Positions 1 to 27,231 of a stretch of DNA of 29,138 bases are shown in pieces. Position numbers and translations under genes: made by a program. The stretch comes from a virus. Positions within the stretch are counted from its first letter, which is position 1. Each line of letters begins with the position of its first letter. The stretch spans positions 1 to 29,138 of the IMG/VR virus record IMGVR_UViG_3300009034_000172. One strand, 5' to 3'. The notes below the pieces were generated by a model, which did not search any database, was not told where the DNA came from, and was given only the letters and a program-made list of their open reading frames with translations.

Positions 1-480
1 AAGCGAGCCATTTTGCGAAAGAAAACCATGTTAGAAAAGCGAGCCATGTTTGATAATAAACCCACAAAATGAAAGCGAGCCAATACAATAAAGAAATCCC
101 CTAACTATAAGCGAGCCGATATGCCATAGAAAGCCATCTTGAGTAAGCGAGCCAATTGTTTAAAGAAAACCATAGTGCAAAAGCGAGTCCAGTTAGCCAA
201 GAAATCCAAGATGGCACAGCGAGCCTTCGACCCAAAGGATTCCAATTAGGCAAAGCGAGCCATTTAGAATAAGAAATCCACATGAAGGAAGCGAGCCAAT
301 AAGGGTTAGAAACCCAAGGACAAGAAGCGAGCCATCTAGTTAAAGCAAACCAAACAGATAAAGCGAGCCACTGCGGACAAGAAAATCATTTAAGGAAAGC
401 GAGCCAAATAATTAAAGAAACCCATTTATTACAAGCGAGCCACTGCTCATAAGAAACCCAGTATAAAAAAGCGAAAGCCA
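1..480. repeat. TIGR-like guide array 1 (18-nt phase, alternating A/B repeats, 8-nt spacers)
   Basis: Twenty-seven 10-base repeats start at 1, 19, 37 and so on every 18 nt up to 469, with no phase slip. Odd units are AAGCGAGCCA (A; nearly invariant) and even units are AAGAAANCCA (B; position 7 is any base). Between them are 8-nt unrelated spacers such as ttttgcga (11-18), tgttagaa (29-36), ctgcggac (371-378) and ctgctcat (443-450). The full unit A-spacer-B-spacer is 36 nt. The last A repeat (469-480) carries a 2-nt insertion, and the left end is cut by the window edge. The layout matches TIGR arrays, whose 36-nt tigRNAs carry two short spacers. CRISPR is excluded because spacers are far too short. 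The transcribed strand cannot be decided here; it probably follows the adjacent plus-strand tas gene. The sequence shows the geometry directly, and the guide-RNA role is inferred. Confidence 0.9.
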
Positions 481-492
481 GAGGAGATTGAA

Positions 493-1380
493 ATGGCCAA
501 AAATCAGCACCTTTACGATTATCATTTCGAGAAGCAAGGGGGAAAATGTAATGAATGCGGTCGTGAGCTAGTAAGTCGCTTTACAAGCCGGCTCAAACGA
601 ATTATTCCAGGAAGAGATGGGGGCAAATGGACGCTTGGAAATACCAGGATTATCTGTCTCAAATGCGAATGGGAGCTAGAGGGCACGAAGCCAGATTCCC
701 CGCGCCCATTACTAAAAACCATCTACCGCTCATTCAAGCGATTTCAGGTAGACCATGGACGGCTGGATCGAATCATTCGAGCAGCCACTGGCGATATTAA
801 AGGAACCACCCCATCGCCATACATGGATGCTGAGACGCTCGCCATACTTCTAGCAGACCTTGAGCTTTTTTGGAAAAGAGTGAAGCGAGTCAAAAAAGAC
901 CTTGTAAAGATGGTTCATGAAATGCCGGAGTGGAAGGGGTTTATGAGTGACGCGCCAGGCATGGGGGAGATAACGGCGGCTTATTTACTATCAATAGTGA
1001 ATATCGCAAAGGCAAAAAGTGTTTCCGCGCTTTGGAAATTCTTTGGCTTTGATCCTGCGAATGCAGCCGGTGTGAAAGATCGCAATCCAGGGCTAGGTCA
1101 GCTTCGGGCACCACTTTACGCCGGTCTGTCTATTGCGCTCATAAGGAAAGACAGCCCTTATCGCGAGCATTACGATCATTGGAAATCGAAGGGCGTGAGC
1201 CATGGCGGAGCGCTGCGGAGGATTATGAAGTTATGGTTATCCCATCTATGGGTGACCTGGCGGGAGTTTGCGAAATTACCTGTTACGAAGCCATTTGTGA
1301 ACGATAAACTGGATCATACAACATATCATGATCCAAGGGATTATGGCTGGCTAGTCAAATCATCAAAGAAAACCGGATAA
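493..1380 (+). CDS. Tas-like RNA-guided protein (HNH-like zinc finger + Nop/IS110-C-terminal-type domain)
   Basis: This 295-residue protein lies between two guide-like arrays. Residues 14-62 form a treble-clef HNH-like module: C19-x2-C22, a GRDGG turn at 40-44, N50 and C55-x2-C58. The HNH general-base His is replaced by Arg (R36 in RIIPG) and the last H/N ligand position by E59, so nuclease activity is doubtful. Residues 110-145 are a charged, probably coiled helix. Residues 153-260 resemble the Nop / Transposase_20 fold, with PGMGEITAAYL (155-165) and LWKFFGFDP (180-188). No DEDD/RuvC domain is present, so it is not an IS110 transposase. The family match is to HNH-bearing Tas proteins (TasH), which bind tigRNAs to recognise DNA. 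The start is supported by GAGGAG 6 nt upstream. Its last codons (Lys-Lys-Thr-Gly) are encoded by an in-phase B repeat of the downstream array. Family assignment rests on motif and context, without alignment. Confidence 0.8.
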   Translation: MAKNQHLYDYHFEKQGGKCNECGRELVSRFTSRLKRIIPGRDGGKWTLGNTRIICLKCEWELEGTKPDSPRPLLKTIYRSFKRFQVDHGRLDRIIRAATGDIKGTTPSPYMDAETLAILLADLELFWKRVKRVKKDLVKMVHEMPEWKGFMSDAPGMGEITAAYLLSIVNIAKAKSVSALWKFFGFDPANAAGVKDRNPGLGQLRAPLYAGLSIALIRKDSPYREHYDHWKSKGVSHGGALRRIMKLWLSHLWVTWREFAKLPVTKPFVNDKLDHTTYHDPRDYGWLVKSSKKTG

Positions 1381-1573
1381 GCAAAGCGAGCCACCTTTGC
1401 TAAGAAAACCAGGAAAGGGTAGCGAGCCAGTAGAAATAATAAGCCCATTAAGATAAAGCGAGCCACATGTTTAAAGAAACCCAGGATGGTCAAGCGAGCC
1501 AGCTTAATGAAGAAAACCACATAAAGAAAGCGAGCCACCTTTGTTAAGAAGCCCAGGAAAGAGAAGCGAGCAA
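1366..1573. repeat. TIGR-like guide array 2, overlapping the 3' end of the tas-like gene
   Basis: Eleven clear repeats start at 1384 and recur every 18 nt to 1564 (A: 1384, 1420, 1456, 1492, 1528, 1564; B: 1402, 1438, 1474, 1510, 1546), with 8-nt spacers. The consensus is the same as in array 1. One further B repeat, AAGAAAACCG at 1366-1375, is exactly in phase but lies inside the upstream coding sequence, and its spacer (1376-1383) contains the TAA stop. The final A repeat (aagcgagcaa) is degenerate. Two units carry near-identical spacer pairs (cctttgct/ggaaaggg and cctttgtt/ggaaagag). Together with array 1, this array brackets the tas-like gene. Confidence 0.88.
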
Positions 1574-2673: not shown

Positions 2674-2992
2674 AATGCTACCCGTTCTATATTTCGAGGC
2701 AGCGAGCGTGTCTGATGCAGCCAGGACGCTCAATGATTTAGTCGGCAATCTTTATAAAGATCATCTTGGAAATGTTTTCAGGATGACTGGCTTCTACCAC
2801 TTCCAGGTAGTGGTTGATCATTATGAGAACCAACGTAAAGGAGGTACAATTTCAGTATATGAAATAATCGCATTGCCCATCTATGAGCATGTCGATTGGT
2901 TATCGACGAGGCAAGAGGGCAAATCAATGGCTGAAATTTTGGCAGAACAGGTGGAAAATCTTGCCGAACCTACCCTCACTGTTGGAGGCTGA
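2663..2992 (+). CDS. hypothetical protein
   Basis: A 109-residue product starting at ATG 2663, supported by GAGGA 5 nt upstream. A longer in-frame reading from 2570 is possible but would overlap the previous gene by over 100 nt and has no good ribosome site. The sequence begins MENEMLPVLYF and looks like a small mixed alpha/beta domain with a helical C-terminus (MAEILAEQVENLAEPT). I do not recognise a family. The gene ends in GGAGGCTGA, so its last codons form a strong ribosome-binding site for the methyltransferase that follows. Confidence 0.6.
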   Translation: MENEMLPVLYFEAASVSDAARTLNDLVGNLYKDHLGNVFRMTGFYHFQVVVDHYENQRKGGTISVYEIIALPIYEHVDWLSTRQEGKSMAEILAEQVENLAEPTLTVGG

Positions 2993-4418
2993 CATCATTC
3001 AATTCGCCCGTGACTACACGGGCGAACGTTTTAACGCGATCCTGTGTGATCCGCCATATGCTTTGATTTCGGTCGCCAAGAGGTTTGGAAAACCTGGCAG
3101 CGCTCCTGCCCAAGAAGATGGAATGGACGGGAGCTTTGCGCGCTTGTCTAAAGGCTTCATGGGGCAATCCTGGGATTCGTTCGAGAGCCTTGACCAATAT
3201 CGGGAATGGGTCAAGACCTGGGCGAAACTTTTGATTGATAAAATGCTGCATCCTGGCGCGGTCTGTCTCTTTTTTGGCGGCACGCGGACTTGGCATCACC
3301 TGGCGGTCGGGCTGGAGGCCGGAGGCTTCGAGGTCTATGATACGCTGCTCTGGCTGTATGGATCGGGCTTCCCGAAGAGTCATGACATTAGCAAGGGGAT
3401 TGATAATGAGCAAGCCGAAGAGTGGCAAGGCTACGGGACAGCCCTCAAGCCGTCCTGGGAGCCGATCTTGCTATGCCGAGCACCAAGAGATGGCGAAACG
3501 TTTGCTAGGCTCGCTCTGGAGCACGGGAGCGGGGCATTGAATATTGACGGAGGGAGGATAGAAACAAAGGAAGATTTACAAAGAGACTGTAAAGGATGGG
3601 CAAGTGCACATCACCTTGGGTATAAAAGGCCATGGATGGATGATGCAGATAAAGAGGTATTTGGAAGTAATAGAGGCCGCTGGCCGGCAAACCTGCTGCT
3701 GTCCCATCATGAAGATTGTAAGCTCATCGGTAGTACCAGAGTACCAGCCAGGGTGATAAATCGGTGGGAAGAAGGAGCCAAACCGTTCGGCGGGGCAGGT
3801 GGACTAGGACTTGAGTACCAGTCAGAAACGGCCGGCGACGAAAATGGAATGGAAATAATCGAGCGCTGGGCGTGCGTGCCGGAATGCCCGATCCGGCAGT
3901 TGGATGACCAGGCGGGTATGTTGACTTCTGGCAAGGGTGCGATAAAGAAAGATACATCGCAAGGTCATTTAGGAATGACCTTTGGCGCTGAGAGCCGAGA
4001 AGCAGGAACGCCAATGATTTCATATGGCGATATGGGCGGTCCCTCTCGTTTCTTTTATTGCGGCAAGGCAAGCCCAGCAGAGAAGGACAAGGGATTGGAT
4101 AAATATTTTTGGAAGAGGGTGCCGGATGGCTTCGAGCGAATATCCGAAGATGAATGGCGGTGCCTGCCACGCAGAGAGAGGGCGCAGGGAAACATCCATC
4201 CGACCGTCAAGCCGCTCGATCTGTTGCGCTACTTGGCGAAATTGATAAAGCCTCCCAAGGGCGTCAAGGCACGATTGCTGGTTCCTTTCAGCGGATCGGG
4301 GTCGGAGTGTATCGCTGCGCACCAGGCCGGCTGGAGCGAGGTGGTGGGCATAGAAATCTCGGCACTTTACAATGAGATGGCTCAGGCGAGAATGTTGGGC
4401 ACCTTGGGCATGTTCTAG
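2982..4418 (+). CDS. DNA methyltransferase, beta class (N4-cytosine or N6-adenine)
   Basis: This is a type II-like DNA methyltransferase transferring a methyl group from S-adenosylmethionine to DNA. From TTG 2982 it has 478 residues. Motif IV DPPY is at 23-26, motif X HPTVKP at 406-411, and the SAM-binding motif I (PFSGSGSE) at 435-442. The order IV...X-I defines the beta class (DNA_methylase N4/N6 family). About 380 residues between IV and X hold the target-recognition region. The start is uncertain: ATG 2883 overlaps the previous gene by 110 nt, TTG 2982 overlaps by 11 nt, and GGAGG at 2984-2988 would best serve a rare ATT at 2997. In a phage it would modify its own DNA against host restriction; no partner restriction enzyme is seen. 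Confidence 0.88.
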   Translation: MEADIIQFARDYTGERFNAILCDPPYALISVAKRFGKPGSAPAQEDGMDGSFARLSKGFMGQSWDSFESLDQYREWVKTWAKLLIDKMLHPGAVCLFFGGTRTWHHLAVGLEAGGFEVYDTLLWLYGSGFPKSHDISKGIDNEQAEEWQGYGTALKPSWEPILLCRAPRDGETFARLALEHGSGALNIDGGRIETKEDLQRDCKGWASAHHLGYKRPWMDDADKEVFGSNRGRWPANLLLSHHEDCKLIGSTRVPARVINRWEEGAKPFGGAGGLGLEYQSETAGDENGMEIIERWACVPECPIRQLDDQAGMLTSGKGAIKKDTSQGHLGMTFGAESREAGTPMISYGDMGGPSRFFYCGKASPAEKDKGLDKYFWKRVPDGFERISEDEWRCLPRRERAQGNIHPTVKPLDLLRYLAKLIKPPKGVKARLLVPFSGSGSECIAAHQAGWSEVVGIEISALYNEMAQARMLGTLGMF

Positions 4419-5477: not shown

Positions 5478-6185
5478 ATGGCGAAGTTGCCAGCAGATCA
5501 CTTGCGCTGCATCGCACTAAATTCCAAATGCTATAACTGTTATCACGTATATGATGAAGAGCGATTGACAAAATGCCCTAAGTGTGGAGCACCAAGGCGT
5601 TGTCGAAAGCCCAGGGTAAAAGGGACGAATGTTTGCTGGGTGCATGGCGCGGCGGGGGGAAGGACACCCAAACACGGAAGATATATGGCACCGGCAAATA
5701 TTCTTGCCCAATACAACCGCGTTTTAAAAGACCCCAACATTTTGAATCTGGCAAGTGAGATAGCCTTGCTTTCAGGCAGGACTCAAATCATCATGGATGC
5801 ACTGGACGAATTAGATATTCCTGCTGCAATCGATGAATTAAATTTAAATGTGGCCAGTCTACGAACTGCAATTGATCATGATGATCGAAGAGGTATGTTA
5901 GCCGCGTTAAAGAAAATGGATAAGGCACTTGAGATATTAAATAAAGAGAGAATCTTTTGGATCGAAGCGCGCGAAAACATGAAGCTCCATAGTGAAATCA
6001 CCATGAAGCAAAACATTCTCATGCAGGATGCCAAAGAGCTAATTCCCACAGCCCAAGTTTTAGAAGTGCTGGTTTGGGGCAATAGAATTGCGGTGAAATA
6101 CATCCGTGCCCCAGAGGATAGAAAAGCATACTCGCGCGAAATGTTAGCCATATTGCCAAGAGCGCAGGGTGTGGATAAAAGATGA
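5478..6185 (+). CDS. putative terminase small subunit (zinc-finger type)
   Basis: A 235-residue protein that overlaps the large terminase start by 4 nt (ATGA at 6182). The N-terminus has a zinc ribbon, C18-x2-C21 and C33-x2-C36. It is followed by RRCRKPRVKG (40-49), CWVHG (53-57) and a PKHGRY element (64-69). The C...C-x2-HG...KHG arrangement is common at the N-termini of DNA-binding small terminase-like proteins. Residues 75-180 are helical and probably oligomerise. In the packaging motor such a subunit recognises phage DNA and regulates TerL. The assignment rests mainly on position and this zinc/KHG pattern; an unrelated DNA-binding protein is possible. Confidence 0.6.
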   Translation: MAKLPADHLRCIALNSKCYNCYHVYDEERLTKCPKCGAPRRCRKPRVKGTNVCWVHGAAGGRTPKHGRYMAPANILAQYNRVLKDPNILNLASEIALLSGRTQIIMDALDELDIPAAIDELNLNVASLRTAIDHDDRRGMLAALKKMDKALEILNKERIFWIEARENMKLHSEITMKQNILMQDAKELIPTAQVLEVLVWGNRIAVKYIRAPEDRKAYSREMLAILPRAQGVDKR

Positions 6186-7753
6186 TGGATGAAGTAAAAG
6201 CACCTGCAATGTGGGACTTTTATGTGTACGATCAGGTCCAAGATGCGTACATTGATGCTATTCGTGATGAATGCGGCACGCAGCCAATAGTTACCGATGA
6301 GGACAGGGCAAAGAAAAGGGCGCATAACGATCTTTTGGAATTTACTTTATACACTTTCCCCACATATAAAGCTGAGCCATTTCATCGGCACGTGTGCACA
6401 CAATTAAATAAGCTCGTTTTGCCAGAGGAGCTTGGCGGCACTCCTGATGTAAAAAATCTGATGCTGTTCGCTCCACCTCAGCATGGTAAAAGCGAGCTAG
6501 TTTCTACAAGACTTCCCAGTTTCTGGTTGGCTCACAATCCTGATTTGCCCGTGGCTTTGGTTTCATACGGTGCCAGTCTAGCCTACCGCAATAGCCGCAA
6601 TGCTAGAGCGGTTTTTGAATCCCCCTTCTATTGGCACGTTTTCAGAAATGTTTTCCGTGACACCATGAATTGGCGCATGGCTGACTGGCACTTGCGCGAG
6701 AACAAAGGCTATGTGATGGCAGCCGGCGTTGGTGGCCCGATCACTGGTCACGGCTTTGGTTTGGGAATCGTTGATGACCCAGTAGAGAATTGGGCTGCCG
6801 CGCAATCGGATGCGCTCAGGGAACGGATTTGGCAATGGTGGATCGGCACATTTAAAACCCGAATGTGGGAGGATGGAAAAATTGTTTTGATGATGACCAG
6901 ATGGCATGAAGACGATTTGGCTGGTCGCATCTTAAAACAAGAGGGTCGGATCGAAGAAGGCGGCAAATGGAAAGTAATTTCATATCCGGCGCTTGCCTTA
7001 GAGGGCGACATTTTAGGTCGGGCACCAGGGGAGGCATTGGCTCCTAGTCGTTTCTCCAGGGCATATTTGGAGGACTTGCGTCTGGACTTGGGAAGCTATG
7101 TTTGGTCGGCTGAATATCAACAAATGCCCACGAAGCCCGAAGGTGATTATTTTAAGATCGGGCGCATTCAAATCGTAGACAGTGTGCCAGCCGAGGTAGC
7201 CGAAATAAGGTTACCTCCTGCAACGCCAAGAAACCCTGATCCATTTCCAATCATCACCAAAGTTATTAGGGGCACCAGATTTTGGGACTTGGCAGCTAGT
7301 GAGAAAAAGCTGCTTAAACAAGACCCCGATGCAACCGCCGGCGCGTTGATCGTGGTTTACGAGGGTCATGTCTATTGGCTGGACCTCGTTCATGCTTTTA
7401 TGGGGCCGGAGATGGTGACAGATTTGGTAAAGCAAACCGCCAGAATTGACGGTCGGGGGGTCAGGGTACGATTGGAGCAAGAGCCAGGTCAGAGCGGAAA
7501 AGCACAGATCGCGTTTTATACACGTCAACTCATAGGCTTTGATGTAGCTGGCATACCATCGAGCGGGGATAAAACAACCAGAGCAACCCCATTGGCTGCG
7601 CAGATAAATGCCGGCAATTTGTTCATGCTCCGAGGTGCATGGAATAAGTCAGCATTAAATGAGCTTGCTGGTTTTCCTCATGCTGCGCATGATGACATTG
7701 TAGATTCTGGCGAATCATGGAGGCCGGCAAATGGCGAAAACTGCAATAGCTAA
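6182..7753 (+). CDS. terL: terminase large subunit (packaging ATPase/nuclease)
   Basis: A 523-residue motor protein that translocates DNA into the prohead and cuts the concatemer. The Walker A variant is APPQHGKS (97-104), Walker B is LGIVDD (194-199), and the coupling motif TRWHEDDLAGR is at 239-249. The C-terminal RNase H-like nuclease shows FWDLAAS (367-373, catalytic Asp369), LEQEPGQSGK (431-440) and FPHAAHDDIVD (498-508, Asp504/505). Length and order are normal for a complete TerL. The start overlaps the putative small subunit and the end overlaps the portal gene by 23 nt, as in a tightly coupled packaging operon. Confidence 0.95.
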   Translation: MMDEVKAPAMWDFYVYDQVQDAYIDAIRDECGTQPIVTDEDRAKKRAHNDLLEFTLYTFPTYKAEPFHRHVCTQLNKLVLPEELGGTPDVKNLMLFAPPQHGKSELVSTRLPSFWLAHNPDLPVALVSYGASLAYRNSRNARAVFESPFYWHVFRNVFRDTMNWRMADWHLRENKGYVMAAGVGGPITGHGFGLGIVDDPVENWAAAQSDALRERIWQWWIGTFKTRMWEDGKIVLMMTRWHEDDLAGRILKQEGRIEEGGKWKVISYPALALEGDILGRAPGEALAPSRFSRAYLEDLRLDLGSYVWSAEYQQMPTKPEGDYFKIGRIQIVDSVPAEVAEIRLPPATPRNPDPFPIITKVIRGTRFWDLAASEKKLLKQDPDATAGALIVVYEGHVYWLDLVHAFMGPEMVTDLVKQTARIDGRGVRVRLEQEPGQSGKAQIAFYTRQLIGFDVAGIPSSGDKTTRATPLAAQINAGNLFMLRGAWNKSALNELAGFPHAAHDDIVDSGESWRPANGENCNS

Positions 7754-10199
7754 AGTCCCATCTGAAGTTGAAACCCCACGTCGCCAGCGGGCAATAAATC
7801 TCCAGTCCTATCTTCAACGATGGATTCCATATTGGGGGCATCCTGGTTGGTTGCAAGCTGAGAGATGGCGTGCCTTTGTTCGCAATCAGCCATTGGCCGG
7901 CATCTGTCGTGATACTCTAATCTCCAACCTCAAAAACATGGAGTGGGACATCATCCCTAAGCACCCCGAAGATGTTGGAAATCGAAACATCCAAAAAGCA
8001 ATTGATTATTATAAAGACCTTTTCTTTCAAATAGAGGGCAGCTTTGATACCTATGTGGATTTAATGGGTCAGGACATGTATGACCTGCCATTTGGTGCGA
8101 TGTGCGAAGTTGTGCGTGAAGACGATGATCCCGAAGGTCATGTATTGGCATTGCATCACGTGGATGCAGCAACACTATTTCCGACCGGCGATCAAGATTT
8201 TCCGGTGCAGCAGCGAGTCCCTGAATTACCAGGGGCAATCGTAAACTTCCCCAAATATGCGATGGAACGAATGATGATTTCGCCCAGGCCCGAAATAAGA
8301 CGCAAGGGCTGGGGAATGGCTCCGCCTGAAAAAGCGTATTTGGCAGTGGAAATGCTTTTCAGAGGTGATCGATACTATGCCAATTTGCTGCTCGACACTC
8401 CAGAGGCCGGCATTTTAGATTTGATGGATATGGATGAAGAGACAGCCGATCAATGGATCGAGGGATGGAAATCGTTGTTCCAAGGGATTGACGGCTTTAA
8501 GGTTCCCATCCTGCACAGCCACGAAAAAGCAGCCCAATGGATTCCGCTCAATCGCCCACCCATTGACATGATGTATGACAATGTAACCGCCAAATATGCT
8601 CAGCTACTTGCCGCGGCGTATGGACTTCGACTTTCAGACATTGGATTGGAGCAGCAAAAAGGTGAGAAGACTTTAGCTGGAGTTATACGCGGTGAGCGGC
8701 AATCAAGACGATCAGGCTATGCTACAGGTAAGACCAATTTTGAAAATCATTTCGACAGGATTTTACCTGAGCAAATAAAATTTGTCTGGATTGATGTCGA
8801 TGAAGAATCAAAATTAATGAAGTCTAAAACACTTGTGTCTTATGGGCAGGCGCTATCCTCATTGGTCACAGGGAAGATGATCACCCAGCAAGAGGCACGT
8901 CAAGAGCTTGTGGCTCAAGGATTACTCGAAACCGAAATAGATGTGGATGAGCTACCCGAAGAATTAGCTATTCAAGAAGAGCAGATGGCTCCTGAAGCAG
9001 AGCCAGATTTTCCGTTTGGTAAATCAATGCCACCGGAAGAGGAGGTTCCGCCTACCCAGGGAGGAAGAGGAGGTCCGACCCCTAAGATGACCTGGAGGCA
9101 GGGACCAGAAGATGCGCGAAAGCAGCCGCACGAATGGGAATCAATCGAACTTAAAAATATGATGGCTCAGATTGTGAAACCGCACATGGATGCAATCAAT
9201 CAGCGCGCAGAAAGCCCTCGCATCCGGCGATTGATAAAAGTTGCTACACGGGCAATGGTGCCAAGCGTAGCCAAAACATTTGAAGTGATCACCGATGACC
9301 AGATAGAAGATTTCTGGCTGCCAGAAATGTGCGCAATGGACTTCGATCTGCCATCTGAGATGGAGAGCCTTATTTTGCGCCAAGGCATAAATGACATCCA
9401 TGAAGAGCTTGATAAACATCTGGAAGATGATCCTTGGTGGCAGACACTATCCGACCTCGATAAAGCTCAGATATTGGAAATATTTGTGTTGGCTTATGAG
9501 CGGGGGATGGAAACCATTGCGTTAGATGCGGTGAGGGCTTTGTACGAGGAAGGACTATGGGCGCGACCCAATTTGGTTGGCTACGAATTTAATGTGGTGA
9601 ACAAAACCGTCATGAGCGAATTAGAAGCGAAGGCGGCTGATCTTGTCACCCATGTCAATCAAGGCACGAAGACTTTTATTAAAAGAATCATCACTTCGGG
9701 TGTGCGTCAGGGACTTGCCGCGCCACAAATAGCTCAAGCATTAAGGGAAGGTGTAGCGGCTGAAACCTTGCTCAGATGGGATGAATATATGGGATCGGTC
9801 GAGGAGCTTGTTCACGATGGTTTGATTGAAATGAGCAAGTCGCGCTCGATCAGCATTGTAAATACCGAAATCAATCGAGCCGAGAACGCCGGCCAATTAG
9901 GACAGATGATACACAGCGGCTTGAGTGAAAAAGGATGGGTGCACTTAGGCGAGCGAGGGGTTACTGAAAAGGGGAATCCCTGTCCATGTCCAGTTTGTGA
10001 GGCAAATGAGAAGTTGGGTTTTGTACCATTGGATTATATTTATCGAACAGTTTTTAAAACGGGGGGTGTGGATGGTAAGGGCGGGCAACTTCATCCACCG
10101 GCACATCCAAACGTTTGTCACTGCACGATATTTTTTAAAGAGGAGGACTTGTTCGACGCGGTTGCAAAAGGGGATTGGAAAATTTGGAACGGCAAGTAA
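7731..10199 (+). CDS. portal protein fused to Mu F-like head morphogenesis domain
   Basis: This 822-residue protein joins two head functions that are usually separate genes. Residues about 20-410 are a portal of the DUF935/SPP1-like type, with FVRNQPLAGICRDTLISN near the N-terminus, RYYANLLLDTPEAGILDL, and a region (300-350) like the portal stem. A Pro/Glu-rich linker follows (about 430-480). Residues about 600-810 resemble the Mu gpF (MuF) minor head domain: a helical stretch with TEINRAENAGQLGQ, a CPCPVC element and the ending HPPAHPNVCHCTI (788-800), the family's PHPNC-type signature. The portal forms the DNA entry ring; MuF domains sit inside the head. Many phage MuF proteins carry toxin domains, which fits the effector-rich genes that follow. 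Confidence 0.85.
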   Translation: MAKTAIAKVPSEVETPRRQRAINLQSYLQRWIPYWGHPGWLQAERWRAFVRNQPLAGICRDTLISNLKNMEWDIIPKHPEDVGNRNIQKAIDYYKDLFFQIEGSFDTYVDLMGQDMYDLPFGAMCEVVREDDDPEGHVLALHHVDAATLFPTGDQDFPVQQRVPELPGAIVNFPKYAMERMMISPRPEIRRKGWGMAPPEKAYLAVEMLFRGDRYYANLLLDTPEAGILDLMDMDEETADQWIEGWKSLFQGIDGFKVPILHSHEKAAQWIPLNRPPIDMMYDNVTAKYAQLLAAAYGLRLSDIGLEQQKGEKTLAGVIRGERQSRRSGYATGKTNFENHFDRILPEQIKFVWIDVDEESKLMKSKTLVSYGQALSSLVTGKMITQQEARQELVAQGLLETEIDVDELPEELAIQEEQMAPEAEPDFPFGKSMPPEEEVPPTQGGRGGPTPKMTWRQGPEDARKQPHEWESIELKNMMAQIVKPHMDAINQRAESPRIRRLIKVATRAMVPSVAKTFEVITDDQIEDFWLPEMCAMDFDLPSEMESLILRQGINDIHEELDKHLEDDPWWQTLSDLDKAQILEIFVLAYERGMETIALDAVRALYEEGLWARPNLVGYEFNVVNKTVMSELEAKAADLVTHVNQGTKTFIKRIITSGVRQGLAAPQIAQALREGVAAETLLRWDEYMGSVEELVHDGLIEMSKSRSISIVNTEINRAENAGQLGQMIHSGLSEKGWVHLGERGVTEKGNPCPCPVCEANEKLGFVPLDYIYRTVFKTGGVDGKGGQLHPPAHPNVCHCTIFFKEEDLFDAVAKGDWKIWNGK

Positions 10200-11302: not shown

Positions 11303-14300
11303 ATGGAAATCGAAGTTACGCGCGCACAATTCGCCGCACTGCTCCGCGGCGAATCTGTTGCTGTCGGTGCAACCAAAAAAATCGTCAAGTTGGCAGATGG
11401 GCCTTTTATAGTTAAGGGCGGTCCTGGCAGCGGCTTTAAGGGGCATGTTGGTCGTCCAGGTGAAGTTGGCGGGGCTGCACCCGAAGGCACTCCACCCCCA
11501 CCCAAGAAAATGCCTAGACAAAAATATGCCGGTGAGCCAAGAGGTTTGGGGCGCGTACGAGTGCCGGCTAATCGCGAAGAAATTAGCACGGAGCTATCGA
11601 AGATAAATGAGGTCCTTGATCATTTGGTATGGACTTCAAACGCGGTACCAATTGATGATCGCGAGCGAGTCCGCAAAGCAATGTATGTCGCTCATGATTG
11701 GAAATATAGATTGGATCAATTCCCTGAAGAAGAGTTAACCGATGCCGAAAAAGAGTTTGGAGCATACGCCTTAGATATTTTGGATCATTTGATCGATCAG
11801 TATCATTTAGATGATTATATAACTTCTGAGCATCAATCAACCCTCGCTGCATTGCGACAATCTCTTGGTGACGTGGATTATGATCCATTCAAAGACATAG
11901 AACCTGAAGACGTGCCTTATGTTCAGCAATATTTAGACTATACGCCGGAAAACGTGAGGGATGAAAAATGGTATCAGAAACAGGTATCAAGAGTAATGGG
12001 GCTTGGGCTTCGCGAATTTAATGGCGAAATAATATTTAATCCCAACGAGGCGTGGTCAAATGGGGCTTTCGATGAGGTTCAACCAGACATAGCCACAACG
12101 ATAATGGAAAATTGGGCTAGTAGAGCAATAACCGAAGGCACGCTAGAGCATAGATTAGCAAATGAGCTTGGCGGCAGCGATCCCTATTTTTATATTCAGA
12201 ATGCGTTATTAATGTATGACCCCAAACAATACGCGCCTAATATTGAGGGTCAAGATGCGGACTATGCAGCAATCATAAATGATGCTTGGTTGGAGGCAAC
12301 CACTCAGCCAGGATCGATCCTATTATCCGAGGCGGTAGCAGACCAATTTGGCGGTAATCCAATACCACGCGAACGGGCAGGAATCGATCTCGAAACCGTT
12401 GAAGAACTTGGGGTTGTCGAAGCATCGTTGATTGATATGCAGATGTCGGAAGAAGAGGTTTCAGAAGCAGGCAGTCGCATCGTAAATAGAATGTATCGAG
12501 ACACCCAGCGATGGTTGGCTGAAAGAGGGTATCAACCAGGCGATACGGTCAGACTTTATAGAGGAATTGGGGCAATAAATGATGAGCGTTGGAATCCCGA
12601 AGGTGATGAAGGTGTACATAGAGTGGAAATGTGGTCTGCATCATCCTGGTCATATGATTTAGACACAGCATATGGTTTTGCTTCAATGCAAGGTGGCGAT
12701 GGTGCCATTGTCGCCGCCGACGTGCCGATAGATAGATTGCTTGCTAACAGCGACACTGGTCCACCTAATCAAAATGAGGGCGAATGGATTGTGCTTGGTG
12801 GTGATGGCATAGATGCTCAGGTTTACGAAGCAGATAGGAATCCATATGTTATTGAATGGGGGATGAATCCCGATACTAATATGGTGCAAGTTATACAGGT
12901 TAAGCAATCTAATGATGCCTACGCCGATCAAAATGGATTCGAGCCAGGCAGCCGAGCAACCCGTGGGCGTCGAGGGATGCTGGGCTTGTGGGTCGAAGAG
13001 GCATTTCCATTTCGCTCGCCTCTTCCAGTGCTTCCGATTGATGCCATCGCAGATCGTTGGATCGGGCAGAATTTACAGGCAATGGGCATGAGCGGCAAGA
13101 TAGCCGACGATTTGGAAAAGGTCGATCCCGAACAAAGTCATATCGTTCAAGCCTATCGAGCATCCAAGCGAGCTATAAGGCGAAATAGGGAACGTGAATT
13201 AGAAAAGCTAAATGCAAGAATTTTAGCCGACCAAATATCATCCATTCCGCTTCCTCAAGTAGGGCCGATCGAGCCAGAGGACATTGCAGAAGCCATTGAA
13301 AAAGCTGACTGGATAACCCGTGGTGGTCCAGGATCAGGATTTGCAGGGCACGTGGGCAGGCCAGGAGAAGTGGGAGGAGCAGCACCAGCCGGTACGCCTG
13401 CACCCAGCAAATATGGCGAATATTCGCCCAGGCCGCGCCATCAAGTCTATGGTACTCAAGTATTCACTCCCATGCTCAAGGAAATCGTTTATTCATGGCA
13501 GGGCAAGGAAGGTTGGGGGGTAGCTCAGCAAATTTTATATGACATTGAGCGCGCAAGGCGACACGAAGATGATTCGATCCAGGGATTGGCATTGGGAAGT
13601 GATGGTGAGCTTGTAGGAATTGCTGCATTAGATTATGACGCGATGCCAAAGAGGATCATCGCTGATATTTGGGCTGCCGAGGGAATTAATCCTCAGGAGA
13701 TGATGAAAATAAATGGCATGTTCGCCGCTGAAGAAGGCAATGGCGAAGAAATGATGATTCAGGTAGCGATTGAGGCAGCGGCGCATGGAAAAGGCATCTG
13801 GGCTATTTGTGGCAGGGATTCACTGGCATGGTACGCGCAGATGGGTTTTGCAACAGAGCAATTTGAGGATAGGAATTTTACTTACTTGTCAGCCGAGCAG
13901 GTTAAGAATATCGCCGAAACCTTCACTATGCCGGAGCAATTAACCTATGTGCCACCATCAGCTAAGCCGAGGTGGACGATTAAATTTGAAGATGCCTTTG
14001 ATGAATATGTGCCAGAGAATCCAGTGAGTGATGAACCACCCCCAGCCGGTGTGGATCAAATGGATTTCCAGGAGCGCTATCGCTGGGAAACGATGAATTA
14101 TGAGAAAGGCGAGCCATTCAATCCTGAGCAATGGGGCAGGACGCAAGCAGGATATGGCGAAGAGGATTTTATCAACGATTTGTACGATGCCAAGACAATC
14201 GAGGAGGTTGAAAATATTACAAGAGGTTGGATCGATGGTGGTCCTACGGAGGAGTCTGATAATATCGCCAGCATCAGATTTTCAGAGGGCGTAGCCTTCG

Positions 14301-15004
14301 CATTTGGTGGAGAGGCAATACCAGAAGAGCGCGTGTTGGGCGGCGATTTAGATGGCACCTTTGATGCGCTTGTTAATGAATGGGGCGATGATGTTGTGTT
14401 GGGCGCATACGAAAATAAGGAGGCTTACTTTGATCGTCCAGAAGATGAGATTAGCGAAGAGTTGATCGAATTTTCAGCTTTCGTTGAAGGAATGCGCGAT
14501 CATGATATGAGCCTCGATACCACCGAATTTGCCCAGCGAATTTACGAAGATACACAAGCCAAACTTTCAGAAGCTGGCTTTCAAGAAGGGGATACTGTTC
14601 GGTTATATCGAGGGCTGCGCAGCACGCCGGAAGCGAGATTGCCCGAGGGAGCCGATGGCGGCTGGGTGGATTTGGATATGTATTCTGTGTCAAGCTGGAC
14701 GTTTTCAAAATCGAGAGCCGGTCACTTTGCTTGTATGGCGGGCGGCGCAGGTAGCCCAGCGGGATCAGGAACATTAATTGCAGCCGATGTACCGATTGAA
14801 AGATTGCTCGCTGATTATGAAACAGGACCAGCGGCTGGCGGCGAGTATGAATGGCTGGTTTTGGGGCAGGATGGTATTCGCGCATATGCGACTAAAGTTG
14901 ATCAACGGCGGCCGCTATATGAAGCATCGGAAGAACTGGCTGAGAAATTAACGGAAGAGGGTGTACCAGAAGCAGGACTTAAGATAGGCGAAGAGGCTGA
15001 ATAG
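11303..15004 (+). CDS. modular virion-type polyprotein: two ADP-ribosyltransferase domains and a GNAT-like domain
   Basis: A 1233-residue protein with two GGPGSGF-type linkers (39-60 and 674-695). Domain 1, about 330-510, is an R-S-ExE ADP-ribosyltransferase: LYRG with R420, SASSW with S447/S448, and E492-G-E494. After linker 2 comes a GNAT-like acetyltransferase (about 700-880; GELVGIAALDY, RDSLAWYAQMGF). A second R-S-ExE domain follows (about 1010-1200: R1103, SVSSW with S1130/S1131, E1181-Y-E1183). The two ART domains are paralogous through a shared FGG...IP.ER...GDTVRLYRG layout. ExE enzymes transfer ADP-ribose from NAD, usually to arginine. T4 Alt is a precedent for ARTs packaged in phage heads. 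Residues 61-330 are unrecognised. All catalytic residues appear intact. Host target unknown. Confidence 0.8.
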   Translation: MEIEVTRAQFAALLRGESVAVGATKKIVKLADGPFIVKGGPGSGFKGHVGRPGEVGGAAPEGTPPPPKKMPRQKYAGEPRGLGRVRVPANREEISTELSKINEVLDHLVWTSNAVPIDDRERVRKAMYVAHDWKYRLDQFPEEELTDAEKEFGAYALDILDHLIDQYHLDDYITSEHQSTLAALRQSLGDVDYDPFKDIEPEDVPYVQQYLDYTPENVRDEKWYQKQVSRVMGLGLREFNGEIIFNPNEAWSNGAFDEVQPDIATTIMENWASRAITEGTLEHRLANELGGSDPYFYIQNALLMYDPKQYAPNIEGQDADYAAIINDAWLEATTQPGSILLSEAVADQFGGNPIPRERAGIDLETVEELGVVEASLIDMQMSEEEVSEAGSRIVNRMYRDTQRWLAERGYQPGDTVRLYRGIGAINDERWNPEGDEGVHRVEMWSASSWSYDLDTAYGFASMQGGDGAIVAADVPIDRLLANSDTGPPNQNEGEWIVLGGDGIDAQVYEADRNPYVIEWGMNPDTNMVQVIQVKQSNDAYADQNGFEPGSRATRGRRGMLGLWVEEAFPFRSPLPVLPIDAIADRWIGQNLQAMGMSGKIADDLEKVDPEQSHIVQAYRASKRAIRRNRERELEKLNARILADQISSIPLPQVGPIEPEDIAEAIEKADWITRGGPGSGFAGHVGRPGEVGGAAPAGTPAPSKYGEYSPRPRHQVYGTQVFTPMLKEIVYSWQGKEGWGVAQQILYDIERARRHEDDSIQGLALGSDGELVGIAALDYDAMPKRIIADIWAAEGINPQEMMKINGMFAAEEGNGEEMMIQVAIEAAAHGKGIWAICGRDSLAWYAQMGFATEQFEDRNFTYLSAEQVKNIAETFTMPEQLTYVPPSAKPRWTIKFEDAFDEYVPENPVSDEPPPAGVDQMDFQERYRWETMNYEKGEPFNPEQWGRTQAGYGEEDFINDLYDAKTIEEVENITRGWIDGGPTEESDNIASIRFSEGVAFAFGGEAIPEERVLGGDLDGTFDALVNEWGDDVVLGAYENKEAYFDRPEDEISEELIEFSAFVEGMRDHDMSLDTTEFAQRIYEDTQAKLSEAGFQEGDTVRLYRGLRSTPEARLPEGADGGWVDLDMYSVSSWTFSKSRAGHFACMAGGAGSPAGSGTLIAADVPIERLLADYETGPAAGGEYEWLVLGQDGIRAYATKVDQRRPLYEASEELAEKLTEEGVPEAGLKIGEEAE

Positions 15005-16525
15005 ATGAGCAGGCACGATGATTATCTAATATCGGGGTCATTGCGCAGAGTGCAGGTCATCACCGTGAAGGGTAAGCCGGAGGTGGACGGCGCTCTTCGA
15101 CGTGTGATAGAGCGCGGTGGTCCAGGCAGTGGTCATCGTGCCCATAAAGGTAGACCTGGTGAGGTCGGCGGTAGTTTGCCAAGCACTGCTGGCACTTATG
15201 TAGGAATAGGGGGTGGGAAAGGTCAGCGGTATGGACAATATTCAAGTTTGCGTGATGCTTATCGCGAAGCGCTTGCCCAAGGCTGGATACCTGATCCTGA
15301 GCAGGAAGGCGTTTTCACCGGCCGGATTACATTGGAAACTGAGGAGGGCACCTTCAGCAGAGAGCAGCGATTAATGGCTCAAGAATTACGTGACCAATGG
15401 TTCTTCCGTGTAGTTTATGAAAAAACTTATGGACAACAGATGCCGGCTTTTGAAGAGCCGAGGCTGAGAATACCAGAGGCATATCAGATGGAGCCGCCTT
15501 CGGCGGTTGAAACAGAGGAGGGTAAACTATTTTGGCCAGGTGGAGAGCAGCCAGAATGGTTTATCAAGTTTAATCAGAATAGGATAAAGGCAGGGCTTGA
15601 CCCAGTTACGCCAGCAGGTTTAAGCGCAGCATTGGGCATTGCTGGATTTGGAGTAGAAACTGGCGCTACCGGAGGAGGGCGCAGACGTAGAGTGCCAAGT
15701 CCATTTGGCACTGATGTTAGCGCGTTTGCCAGTCGTGGTGGCCCAGGCAGCGGTCATCATGGGCACAGAGGTCGGCAGGGTGAGGTCGGCGGCTCGATGC
15801 CTGGCGCTGGATATGGCGCTCCAAGTGCGCAACCGACAATGCCTGGTTTTGGAAGACAGCCAAGAGCAAAGCGGCCGGCGGGCACCGCCGTTAGTGGGCT
15901 GGCTGATTTGGAGCCTGGCGATAGCCAGACAGTGGCGCAATATTATCAATCGCAGGCAGAACAATCCGAGCCTGCATTAACCGAAATGATGCAAACGTTG
16001 GCTGAGCTTTCTGGCGGTAATTTAACTGGGCTTGAACATGCGGTTAAATCCGCTGAGAGTTTGCAAAATAAGATTGAGCGAGACATGCTTGAAAAAGGCA
16101 TTTCTGCTCAAGAGGCAGCATCGGAAATAAACGACCGCAACCGCTATACATTGGTGCTCAACGATGAAGCCTTTGTTGAGAATGTGCAGCGCGTTCAAGC
16201 CGAGCTTGAGAAGCAGGGCTGGTCGCAATACGATGAAAAGTATAAAAATTTCTTTGCCAGTGGCGACAACTATGATGGATATAATACCGTGGTTATCCAT
16301 GAGAGTGGGCAGCGCTTCGAGCTACAATTTCATACCGAAGACAGCTTGCGGATAAAAGAGCAAGTGCACCCAATCTATGAAAAATTCCGCGAAACCAGGA
16401 ACACGGCTGATCGTCGTGTACTCTGGCAGCAGATGGCTGATGCTTATGCCACCGCAGAGCAGCCCCCAGGCTGGGAGAATTTACCAGGTAGACAAGTCGT
16501 TAGGGAGAAGCCAGGAGAGAAGTAA
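15005..16525 (+). CDS. linker-containing protein with C-terminal RelA/SpoT-like domain
   Basis: A 506-residue protein starting one base after the previous stop, with GAAGAGG upstream. Linkers lie at 38-59 and 245-266. The module between them (about 60-235) is unrecognised. Residues about 335-485 match a RelA/SpoT-like nucleotidyltransferase: NKIERD helix, EINDRNRYTLVL, NYDGYN (422-427, like the YxSxH loop) and FELQFHT (438-444, like the EIQxRT strand with catalytic E439/Q441), then an HPIYEKFR helix. Such domains transfer pyrophosphate from ATP to GDP/GTP, or in toxic relatives to ATP or tRNA. The divergent motifs suggest a toxin-like version rather than a housekeeping RSH enzyme. There is no hydrolase domain and no antitoxin gene beside it. 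Confidence 0.75.
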   Translation: MSRHDDYLISGSLRRVQVITVKGKPEVDGALRRVIERGGPGSGHRAHKGRPGEVGGSLPSTAGTYVGIGGGKGQRYGQYSSLRDAYREALAQGWIPDPEQEGVFTGRITLETEEGTFSREQRLMAQELRDQWFFRVVYEKTYGQQMPAFEEPRLRIPEAYQMEPPSAVETEEGKLFWPGGEQPEWFIKFNQNRIKAGLDPVTPAGLSAALGIAGFGVETGATGGGRRRRVPSPFGTDVSAFASRGGPGSGHHGHRGRQGEVGGSMPGAGYGAPSAQPTMPGFGRQPRAKRPAGTAVSGLADLEPGDSQTVAQYYQSQAEQSEPALTEMMQTLAELSGGNLTGLEHAVKSAESLQNKIERDMLEKGISAQEAASEINDRNRYTLVLNDEAFVENVQRVQAELEKQGWSQYDEKYKNFFASGDNYDGYNTVVIHESGQRFELQFHTEDSLRIKEQVHPIYEKFRETRNTADRRVLWQQMADAYATAEQPPGWENLPGRQVVREKPGEK

Positions 16526-17155
16526 ATGAGGTTTTTTGCCAGACAGAGTGAAAATCCTGACAGTGACAAATATCAGACGCCTCAATCTTTGCACAGGTTT
16601 GAGGTCGGTGAGGAATATATAGTCACTGAGCGATTTGATCCTGAGCAGGGTTGGGTTGACAATCCTGAAATGCTAGGTTTCATGGGCATTGGCGGTGACG
16701 AGGATTATATAGAGATTGATGAGGAAACAGCGCTGCATATTATTGGCCAATTGGCTGAAGAGAAAGACGCTAAAGAAGCATTATGGGAAATGGGCGAGAC
16801 TTTTCTGGAGCTTGCTGGTGGGCAAATCCCCATCGATGAATCAATGGAAATGGGGGATCGCATTCATATAGATCAAGAGGCCGGAGGTTGGTTGAGAGAT
16901 AAAGGTGGAGAAGGCGGGGATACATATCTTGGTGGAGCGAAGGAACCAAGTGATGGTGTTTTCGCAATTCCTGAAGGTCTGGTCAGCGCTCAGCGGCGCA
17001 AGGGATTTGTAAAGGATCAAATTGCACCAGCAGCCGAGGAAACCGAGTTGGAGGATGAAGAGGTGGCTGAAGCAGTTGGGCAAGTGCGGCGCACCTTCGA
17101 TAATTTTATGAGCGGATTGAAAAAGATGTTTGGTAAGCGGAGGCAAGATGGGTAA
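16526..17155 (+). CDS. hypothetical acidic protein
   Basis: A 209-residue protein starting directly after the previous stop, with GGAGAG upstream. It is the only sizeable gene in this region without a Gly/His linker. The central part (60-150) is strongly acidic and probably helical (DEETALHIIGQLAEEKDAKEAL). The C-terminus changes to a short basic amphipathic helix (FMSGLKKMFGKRRQ). No family is recognised. Its end overlaps the next gene by 8 nt. The acidic body with a basic tail could suit a scaffold or chaperone for the large modular proteins, but that is only inference. Confidence 0.6.
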   Translation: MRFFARQSENPDSDKYQTPQSLHRFEVGEEYIVTERFDPEQGWVDNPEMLGFMGIGGDEDYIEIDEETALHIIGQLAEEKDAKEALWEMGETFLELAGGQIPIDESMEMGDRIHIDQEAGGWLRDKGGEGGDTYLGGAKEPSDGVFAIPEGLVSAQRRKGFVKDQIAPAAEETELEDEEVAEAVGQVRRTFDNFMSGLKKMFGKRRQDG

Positions 17156-20100
17156 GAAAAAAGAGGGCAAAATCCGAGGATCACTTAGACGAGTCGCGCT
17201 CGAAGAAAAGGGTGGGCCGGGGTCTGGTCATCATGGACATAGAGGCCGGCAAGGAACCAGAGGTGGAAGTTTGCCCACATCGGCTGGTCTTCATCCTGGC
17301 GGTCGTGGTGTTCCTGATTTTAGGGACATTGAAAAACGCGCATTTGTCTCCGAAAAAACGGCAATGGTCGATGGTCAAATTGTCTATGCGATTGTGAGCC
17401 TCCGGCGCATGGTGGTTTTTCGAGACAAGCCGTACAGATTAGAAACATCGATAGGTAGGCGAGGGGGCAAATTTACTTCTACCGCCCAGGAGCAGGCTGC
17501 CCATCAGCTTCTGGCAGAGCTTACCGATGAGGTGACCACTAGATTAACCCTCGAGGGTTGGAAAAAGAATGCAAGGGGATATTATGTCGCGCCTTGGGGA
17601 CCTCAAACACTTAAGCGCATAAGATTGACCACTCGCCAAGCGCCAGATAGAACACTGTATGAACTTTTAACCCATTTGGATAATGATGGGATTTTATTCG
17701 TTCCTAGAAATCGAGCAGGATTCAATTACTTGCAGCGACAGCGAAACGCCAGTAATGACAGATATTGGTTGAAAAAGATTCGCCGGCTGCGCGATGACTA
17801 TTATGATCGCAACTTCGAGGCGGTGCCTGAGGATGAGCCATATCCTTACGAGGGGCAATCGTATGATGAATGGATATTAGAGCAGCAGGTAGATGCCTTG
17901 TCTGCTCCGCCCGAATTGCCACCAGCGGAGGAGCTTCCTCCAGAGGAGGCCGAAGAGCCAATTCCCGAAAGTCCTGAAGGCGAACCACCGGCTGCCCCAG
18001 GCGAGGCTTTGCCTTTACCAAAATCGGAGCCAATATCTGAGGGCGAGGCCGTGGGCGAAGCGCCAGAGGCCGAAGAAGATGAAGAGTCATTAGCCAAGCG
18101 CATATTCGGCGTACTGCGCAGATTTATTTCCCGCGGTGGTCCAGGGTCTGGGCATCATGGTCACAGAGGACGACCAGGCGAAGTCGGCGGCTCATTACCT
18201 GCCGGCGCTGGAGCGCCTGGGGTGTCGATCAGTGAAGAGCCAGGAGTATATGCCAGACAGCCGGAGTTAGCCCCAGAACAAATTGGACCGAGCGTATTGA
18301 AAAAGATGAATCGCATCTTAAATCCGATCACATCAATAGAGATTGGTGAAGATGTGCCATATGATGATTGGAAAATTGTTGCATCAGAAGTAGACAATCG
18401 TGAATGGGCTGAGGGTGAGAGCTTCGCTGGATCAGTAGCTGCCGATGCGCTCAACAGATGGCAAGAGGGCGAGCCGATTTTGGGGGAGCCTGAGGAAGAG
18501 CCAATCGACTATGTGGTGGATGATGATGCACTGCAAGAATATTTAACAAATCTCAATTATGAGAAGGCAGTACATTTCATTGAAGATGAATGGAATACGA
18601 TTGAGGCTGCGGAGCGTTCTCTTATAGATAAAGAGCTTCGCACCTATGAGGACATTCAAAATTTTCTTGGCCTCACTGATGAGGAATTTATCAGATGGGG
18701 AGAGGCCGATATTAAAAACGCTATCGAGCTTGAGATACAAAGACAGGTCGTTGGCACTTTGATTTCGGAGGGGCAGCTTCCTGTAGAAGCGGTTGAAGCA
18801 TTTGATGATCTGACTGAATTTTTACCTGGAGGGCGAGGATATATAAGAAGCGCTACCGCGGCCGAGATTACCCAAGAAGATGTGATCAGAGCATTTTCCA
18901 ATGAAGTGAATGATAGGCGATTTAGCTTGGTCGAGGAAGTAATTGAGCCGGCTACCGAAGATGATCTTGACGATGAAGAGATGGAGCAATTTCGGGATTA
19001 TCTGGAACCAGACCGCCCAATTATTGGATACGAGGCAGTTGGATATGAGCCAAGCAACCGTTTCATAGAATTGCTTGCGTATGATGGCAATGAGCCAGTT
19101 TGTGCAGCGCAATTAAGACGCATGGAGATAGATTTGGATGATGTGCCGGAGGAGACAATTGCTCGGATAGAGGCCGAGACAGGACTTTCAAGGGAAAACT
19201 TTACCAGGGATTTCTTCGCATTAAAGCTCATTCAATCCAAGCGCTCTGGCGAGGGCTATGGCACCGAGATGGTAATGGAAATATTGCGCATGGCTGCCGA
19301 AGAAAACAGGGGGATTGTAGGTAATGCGACTATGTCTGCTGCAATGTTTTATGCGAAGCTGGGTGCTGTCGGATATAGTGAGGTCTTCCAGACCGAGGGC
19401 GGCACCGCGTTCTGGACAGCCGAGCAAGTCCAGGAAGCCTATGGTTGGCTGCAAAGCGAAGCGGCAAGATTAGCCGCTGGTGGCGAAATGCCTGAGGTTT
19501 ATGAGCAGGAAATTGGAGCAATAAAAATACCTGCCACGCCAACTGCCCGTCCGAGGATGCTATTAGGTCCAGCAGAAATAAGAGAGACAGCCGGAGGTTA
19601 TACATATTTGGAAATGCCAGCCGGAAGAGCTAACGTTTCAATCCCCACTGATATGCCAATGATGTATGAGGCACCAGAGGGTGGCGCATCAGCTATTTAC
19701 GCCAGGCAGGATGACAGTCCAGAATTAGAAGGCGTTTCATATTGGATAAGTGGCGAGGGTTGGGAGGGGCGCAGGTTCGCCGATGCTGAATCGGCTGGTA
19801 ACGCATTAAATGAGGCCGGCTATACACCAGTCCCCCAAACATCCGTCGATGAAAATGAAAATTGGGTAACTGCTTATATTGGTGAGCAGTGGGAGTTGCA
19901 AGGGCCGGTTACATTAGGCGAGCTTGTCTCGCCCACCGCTCCTCCACCTGCTCCCGCGGTACCAGGCCCAGAGGGTTATAGAAGGGCTGATTTGGTGGAG
20001 CAGATTCCTGTCGTTGGCGGAGCGCCAAGGCATGAAACGCCCTACACGATGCAGGGTGGTGTGCGAATAGCTATTGGTGAAGCTGAGGCGACAATGGTCG

Positions 20101-22859: not shown

Positions 22860-23070
22860 GATAGAAGCAATGAAAAGATTGAAAGCAGCTAAAGGCTCAG
22901 GCGAAGATACACAACTTGCAGACTTGCCCGATCTGCCTGAGCTACCAACTGGTGAAGGCACTGTAGCCATATTTATTCCAGGTGAGGCAGAACGTCCTGA
23001 AGATGTACAAGATGAAGAAATTGTAGAGGGTGAGCTTGAAGATGATGAAAATGTCTCTCCCATTGGGTAA
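22831..23070 (+). CDS. hypothetical small acidic protein
   Basis: A 79-residue protein from ATG 22831, supported by GGGAGGG 5-6 nt upstream inside the end of the giant gene (29-nt overlap). The N-terminus is basic and helical (PREIEAMKRLKAAKG). The C-terminal two thirds are Asp/Glu/Pro-rich and probably disordered. It resembles, in style only, the small acidic peptide at 27032. It could be a charge-balancing or scaffold-type peptide; no family is recognised. Confidence 0.55.
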   Translation: MPLKRYSPREIEAMKRLKAAKGSGEDTQLADLPDLPELPTGEGTVAIFIPGEAERPEDVQDEEIVEGELEDDENVSPIG

Positions 23071-23239
23071 GAGAATATTCTTGTTTATTTTGAACATGAG
23101 AGAAGCGTTGAAGTTGCTTTTATCAGACGAGCATGAGATTGCTCCTCCCGATATACCAATCGCTGTTTGGCGCAATGAAATAACAATCTGGGCTAGGAAA
23201 ATGGGGTATGCTGGACCTTTCCCAGAATTGGAGGACTAA
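23042..23239 (+). CDS. hypothetical small protein
   Basis: A product of about 65 residues. The start is ambiguous among ATG 23042, 23045 and 23051 (or 23030), with the GAGGGTGAG stretch at about 23027-23034 as the likely ribosome site. It overlaps the preceding gene by about 30 nt. The N-terminus is hydrophobic and basic (GKRIFLFILNMREALKLLL), followed by a compact helical part with W and Y residues (IAVWRNEITIWARKMGYAG). No family is recognised, and the short hydrophobic stretch is too weak to call a membrane anchor. Confidence 0.5.
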   Translation: MMKMSLPLGKRIFLFILNMREALKLLLSDEHEIAPPDIPIAVWRNEITIWARKMGYAGPFPELED

Positions 23240-23245
23240 CGGGGG

Positions 23246-27059: not shown

Positions 27060-27175
27060 TTCTTGATGAAGATATAGCTAATCCTTATACGGAAATACCA
27101 CCAAAAGAGGCGGCGGTGCCTGCCGCGGAGCCAAAAGAAGGCGAATCTGAAAAAAAGGAATCTGAGCAAGTATGA
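27032..27175 (+). CDS. hypothetical acidic peptide (47 aa)
   Basis: Reads METPDEPRIILDEDIANPY and continues as a Glu/Lys/Pro-rich tail ending SEQV, 47 residues in all. GGAGG at 23023's counterpart position here, 27023-27027, lies 4-5 nt before the ATG. The gene overlaps the previous one by 28 nt in another frame, the same overlap style as the small acidic protein at 22831. It is probably disordered. The function is unknown. It is supported by ribosome site, overlap pattern and codon-like composition only. Confidence 0.5.
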   Translation: METPDEPRIILDEDIANPYTEIPPKEAAVPAAEPKEGESEKKESEQV

Positions 27176-27225
27176 CGCGGATGTGCTTTTTTTCAGATGA
27201 TGATTCTTGTAAGATGTATGGGTGA
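27172..27225 (+). CDS. possible 17-aa peptide
   Basis: ATG 27172 overlaps the previous stop as ATGA and opens a 17-codon frame, MTRMCFFSDDDSCKMYG, ending 6 nt before the next gene. It could be a real coupled mini-gene or simply a re-initiation leader that keeps ribosomes moving to the gene at 27232. Evidence is limited to the ATGA overlap and spacing. Confidence 0.25.
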   Translation: MTRMCFFSDDDSCKMYG

Positions 27226-27231
27226 AGCGAG

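Follow-up and report, generated by a model that had tools for sequence, protein, structure and literature searches.

The viral record IMGVR_UViG_3300009034_000172 from IMG/VR (29,138 nt, referred to here as the window) carries at its left end a tas gene lying between two arrays of short alternating repeats. We read this locus as very probably a phage-borne TIGR-Tas system of the TasH type, the proposed guide mechanism included. The TasH type is supported because sequence, profile, predicted fold, edge repeat and the arrays of homologues all agree. The demonstrated part of the case comprises the anatomy of the locus, its membership, the predicted fold, the clade and the residue changes. TIGR-Tas systems were described in 2025, and their natural targets, their biological role and the growth of their arrays are open questions (PMC12045711). 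The gene is preceded by a possible ribosome-binding site:

482 to 487, + strand: ribosome-binding-site-like GAGGAG, read directly from the sequence
493 to 1380, + strand: tas gene, TasH type, 295 aa, with ATG start, HNH-like N-terminus, coiled coil and Nop/IS110-type C-terminus

In a single-sequence search of the Protein Data Bank (PDB) with phmmer, the TasH of Salicola phage CGphi29 is the best match to the window Tas (E 1.7e-17), and TasR (9mty) is found at 4.5e-13. With a profile of 31 relatives TasH is again first (1.1e-84) and TasR second (2.3e-44), and the IS110 recombinases follow far behind (0.00016). The AlphaFold2 model (pLDDT 88, pTM 0.78) consists of an HNH-like strand, strand and helix, followed by two long helices and, at the C-terminus, a helical part. 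This predicted fold is Nop-like, and its best Foldseek match is 9w04, the TasH-tigRNA-dsDNA complex (E 1e-13, prob 1.00), followed by TasR, ISCro4 and IS621. The top match in a viral structure library is M4R212, whose length and rank suggest that it is the CGphi29 protein. Thus, TasH comes first by sequence, profile and fold, and the TasH-type call made in an initial annotation of this DNA is upheld.

The C-terminal part of Tas is of the Nop/IS110 type and putatively RNA-binding. A related C-terminal RNA-binding fold is found in the IS110/IS621 bridge-RNA recombinases, and the locus might be read as an IS110-family transposase whose bridge-RNA fragments form an unusual array. Transposase_20 is indeed the top Pfam match, although below threshold (16.9 bits against a cut-off of 21.3). 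However, IS110/IS621 proteins have a DEDD catalytic domain and use a single bridge RNA without an array for transposition, whereas the window Tas has an HNH-like N-terminus and no Pfam match to a DEDD domain, scores far better with TasH and TasR and adjoins a multi-unit array with two repeats. The profile and Foldseek comparisons largely refute this explanation, and we consider it very improbable.

The two arrays contain 18 complete units of 36 nt, 13 in array 1 and 5 in array 2. In each unit the edge repeat AAGCGAGCCA (10 nt) is followed by spacer A (8 nt), the loop repeat AAGAAANCCA (10 nt) and spacer B (8 nt), and the half phase is 18 nt. The array features are as follows:

1 to 468, + strand: TIGR array 1, 13 units, from repeat mapping
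469 to 474, + strand: truncated edge AAGCGA at the end of array 1, just 5' of the tas ribosome site
1366 to 1383, + strand: partial unit phased with array 2, consisting of loop repeat AAGAAAACCG (1366-1375) and a spacer, overlapping the tas 3' end and stop codon
1384 to 1563, + strand: TIGR array 2, 5 units, from repeat mapping
1564 to 1573, + strand: degenerate or truncated edge AAGCGAGCAA at the end of array 2, 4 nt 5' of the next open reading frame (ORF; 1578)

Allowing at most two mismatches in the edge and two in the loop, 19 in-phase units are counted, against a maximum of 1 (mean 0.02) in 200 dinucleotide shuffles of positions 1-1600. All 18 units agree at edge positions 2-7 and 9 and at loop positions 2, 5 and 9, and AAG...CCA is common to both repeats. 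All 18 A spacers are distinct, as are all 18 B spacers. Two earlier statements, that arrays of one repeat family stand in strict 18-nt phase on both sides of the gene and that the unit is a 36-nt alternation of repeat and spacer, are hence confirmed. The first base of the record is the exact start of an edge repeat, so array 1 was likely cut by the contig end and probably extends past the left end of the record. Both arrays close in truncated edges (469 and 1564); in TIGR arrays such edges are typically, though not obligatorily, followed by a rho-independent terminator. A CRISPR array is rejected, as two 10-nt repeats alternate in place of one repeat of 25-36 nt with spacers of similar length. 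No Cas families were found among the window ORFs scanned with Pfam, an Rfam search gave no match and a tRNA search found none.

The same repeats occur widely next to Tas genes. The DNA pattern AAGCGAGCCA-N8-AAGAAANCCA was found in 76 IMG/VR stretches, at least 118 match a looser two-edge pattern, and stretches with the repeat pattern mostly adjoin a Tas gene. Searching the first set with a profile yielded 62 Tas-like proteins, among them that of the window and those of two GenBank phages; one of them (L033, 11675-12817) has a very long branch and an IS110-like look. Later loci gave 40 further Tas matches, two of them from already known loci. Arrays are present in all 50 records searched whole, with the reversed pattern almost absent. 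Retrieval by protein alone, which is without the array bias, gave four loci (L080-L083), the Salicola phage and a Microcystis phage, and arrays neighbour the gene in 6 of 6, as the initial annotation had asked of homologues. Unlike nearly all other records, IMGVR_UViG_3300020236_000031 (L013) has units on both strands and far apart.

In a tree of the Nop part, all HNH-bearing Tas proteins, including that of the window, fall in one clade (95/83) nested among Tas. Within it, L002 and L045 are of the CGphi29 type with the HNH present, and the window Tas forms one group with L029, L044 and L005 (100/99), sister to the CGphi29-type TasH. As judged from these sequences, the window clade is a rare sister branch of TasH with a divergent, zinc-knuckle HNH, which the initial annotation had missed. 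IMG/VR scans with an alignment and with single proteins turned up no members beyond the same four, and none were found in GTDB genomes or plasmids.

The nearest system with a solved structure is TIGR-TasH of CGphi29 (SpTIGR/SpTasH; PDB 21kl, 9vzx, 9w02-9w04; PMC12045711). It shares with the window an N-terminal HNH joined to a Nop-type domain, a dual-repeat array with an identical edge consensus, spacers of 8+8 nt and a tailed-phage carrier; its loop is AAGACAACCA. In contrast, the window has arrays on both sides of the gene, the second beginning within it. TIGR-TasR (PDB 9mty) is alike in its Nop-type domain, dual-repeat arrays and 36-nt unit, but has an N-terminal RuvC and UG...CCA repeats where the window has AAG...CCA. 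TIGR-TasA systems with the same repeats (e.g. L008, L016 and L021) share the edge/loop family, the 36-nt period and the Nop-type protein, but TasA is without an N-terminal nuclease domain. In one of them (L021, IMGVR_UViG_3300005573_000321) two tandem tasA paralogues with a synonymous divergence of 0.36 each adjoin an array, and three array blocks lie nearby.

Faure et al. described 36-nt tigRNAs whose two spacers pair with opposite strands; half-sites 0-2 bp apart are tolerated, an adjacent motif is not needed and 3' overhangs of 8 nt result (PMC12045711). TIGR spacers are about 9 nt (8 in SpTIGR) and repeats 8-12 nt. By homology with these systems, a mechanism can be proposed for the window that runs from transcription and processing to guided binding and perhaps cutting. 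Both arrays and tas would be contained in one + strand transcript. Tas would bind this transcript, and a host RNase would trim it to 36-nt tigRNAs by cuts within the edge repeats. A symmetric Tas dimer would then grip one tigRNA via the AAG...CCA motifs of edge and loop. At a 16-bp DNA site the two 8-nt spacers would each pair with a different strand, with a gap of 0-2 bp and no adjacent motif. The published overhang suggests that this site reads as spacer A and then the reverse complement (rc) of spacer B. Cutting of the paired site is the uncertain last step, as Lys35 and Glu59 replace the Asp/His and His of the CGphi29 type. The symmetric grip is consistent with the repeats themselves. Over 121 non-redundant arrays, edge and loop covary in their first base (edge/loop A/A 48, G/G 43, G/A 3, A/G 10; Fisher p 9e-11), in a set biased toward A/A by the first search pattern. 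The covariation fits the published view that these motifs change together since one symmetric dimer binds both (PMC12045711).

Several observations weigh against the TasH reading with its guide mechanism. No rho-independent terminator above chance was found after the arrays by comparison with shuffles, and promoter and terminator predictions in general were not better than shuffles. The HNH active-site residues of the window Tas are non-canonical, and its score with PF01844 (HNH, cut-off 21.4) is 13.9 bits, against 29.7 in its nearest relative L029. Furthermore, targets were absent in every geometry searched. The window's own 29 kb contains no A + rc(B) site with up to two mismatches, the 1062 units tried have no target with up to one mismatch in their own loci, and matches in 714 kb of related phage DNA are not above those of permuted pairs. 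No contig was matched by two guides from one array. In 2 Mb of related phage DNA, matches seemed to be in excess (318 vs about 232) until gap and geometry controls were applied; gaps of 0-2 gave 88, 102 and 99 matches, and control gaps of 3-10 a mean of 89. With no excess left under these controls, the arrays seem not to be directed at their own genomes, and these sister phages do not stand out as targets.

The HNH-like domain bears most directly on the last step. Its relevant positions are:

547 to 666, + strand: putative zinc-knuckle cysteines Cys19, Cys22, Cys55 and Cys58 (codons at 547, 556, 655 and 664), from translation and alignment
595 to 597, + strand: Lys35 codon; every other readable TasH HNH domain has Asp or His here, from alignment
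667 to 669, + strand: Glu59 codon, aligned with the last conserved His (HM) of the CGphi29-type TasH; Asp in L029 and L044

The domain is recognised by alignment and by the topology of the model. CGphi29-type members have the motif D-x-[H/D]-R ... N ... H[M/Q]..HG. It reads I-D-R ... N ... C..C-D-W..EG in L029 and L044, and L-K-R ... N ... C..C-E-W..EG in the window Tas, where Asn50 is kept. Compared with CGphi29 TasH, the window clade thus adds a CxxC...CxxC zinc knuckle and mostly changes HM..HG to C-D/E-W..EG. Among the readable TasH HNH domains, the window Tas alone has Lys at the D/H-R position, and in L005 the zinc-knuckle form of the domain is lost altogether. The Lys35 codon is AAA, two positions away from the Asp codons GAT and GAC, which makes a single sequencing error an unlikely source. 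The HNH zinc finger and Nop-type domain named in the initial annotation stand as domains; the intact HNH nuclease that it implied is an overstatement, given Lys35 and the sub-threshold PF01844 score.

These residues point to a nuclease-dead TasH, a sub-case of the TasH reading that differs in its last step. Guiding would be the same, but the degenerate HNH would only grip the DNA and block transcription, replication or repair at guided sites. Besides the two replacements and the Pfam score, the loss in the related L005 argues for it, as does the finding that most Tas proteins sharing these repeats have no nuclease domain. On the other side, the HNH fold is predicted by the model to be kept, and the zinc cysteines and Asn50 are retained. 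To be noted, CGphi29 TasH has Asp-Arg where the textbook HNH has Asp-His, and its cleavage is HNH-dependent all the same (PMC12045711). Residue identity is hence a weak predictor, and the sequence alone is not decisive on cleavage. HNH activity appears uncertain in the window lineage and doubtful in the window protein specifically. We regard no or weak cleavage by the window Tas as about an even chance, and the fully nuclease-dead form as possible, at somewhat less than that. Inactive RuvC forms of Tas are described in the main text of the founding paper, inactive HNH forms are not (PMC12045711). The locus adds a rare TasH sister lineage with a zinc-knuckle HNH, which provides a natural contrast for which HNH residues matter and allows one to ask whether binding is all that some TasH do.

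The altered residues could also be signs of a decaying relic, in which arrays and gene are left from a formerly active system. Array 1 has degenerate units at 181 and 217, and the first unit of array 2 is swallowed by the gene end. Decay is difficult to reconcile with an unbroken frame of 295 codons with a ribosome site, a fold model of high confidence and 7 of 10 edge positions invariant over 18 units. In addition, the array overlaps the tas 3' end in L005 and L029 as well. We consider a relic unlikely. In L005 (4872-4903) the final tas codons form a near-complete unit, and in L044 (10397-10403) the tas start codon lies inside the closing truncated edge repeat AAGCGATG.

The TasH-type locus belongs to a repeat family that we assembled to 156 arrays with about 1800 units and that offers a concrete hint of how arrays may grow in the absence of acquisition genes. 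Among 64 non-redundant loci, 27 within-locus unit pairs share exactly one spacer (15 A only, 12 B only), about 20 times more than the roughly 1.3 expected with units dealt randomly to loci; related loci are not fully independent in these statistics. Both spacers are shared in just one pair, and A never equals B. Pairs differing at no more than 2 of 16 spacer positions number 36 in the whole set and 0 in permuted sets. The window's own case is the pair of units at 1384-1419 and 1528-1563, with near-identical spacers (CCTTTGCT/GGAAAGGG vs CCTTTGTT/GGAAAGAG). On the reverse strand of L021 a three-unit block is duplicated (6486-6593 and 8187-8294) with its odd repeat variants kept; 6 of 48 spacer positions and 0 of 60 repeat positions have changed. 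Spacers shared between related phages diverge less than tas synonymous sites do; in L016 and L073 they differ at 2 of 128 positions, compared with 0.16 at the synonymous sites, the spacer value being biased downward as near-matching units alone are countable. No clear pattern of seed-position constraint was seen in drifting spacers. Sequence comparison suggests that arrays grow without acquisition genes, units being duplicated and one of the two half-guides then changing. The combined picture of a naturally nuclease-dead, dual-spacer guided DNA binder with arrays diversifying in this way is tentative, and we place it below an even chance.

Regarding the neighbourhood, an uncultured tailed phage as carrier of the system is accepted. 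Contrary to the initial annotation, packaging genes are not next to the locus; the terminase gene (6182-7753) lies about 5 kb downstream. Host assignment was not achieved, since GenBank terminase relatives are too distant and the one close relative (L084, 80%) is on a 4.4-kb contig that ends short of the tas region. Between tas and terminase there is a DNA methyltransferase gene (2883-4418; PF01555, 4.7e-16), which might protect the phage's own DNA. Downstream of a portal-like gene, a conserved motif of about 20 residues, GGPGSGHHGHRGRPGEVGGS, occurs in 14 copies between the domains of seven large ORFs (11303-28917), at 11417, 13322, 15116, 15737, 17211, 18135, 21009, 22188, 23318, 24149, 24716, 25791, 26247 and 27781. 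One possible role is as a signal for processing or cargo loading in a modular set of injected proteins. The seven ORFs have a mixture of enzyme-like modules and include a match to DRAT-type ADP-ribosyltransferase (PF07357), a HEFGH metalloprotease-like motif, an HNHPP...S..D motif and a ChaB domain.
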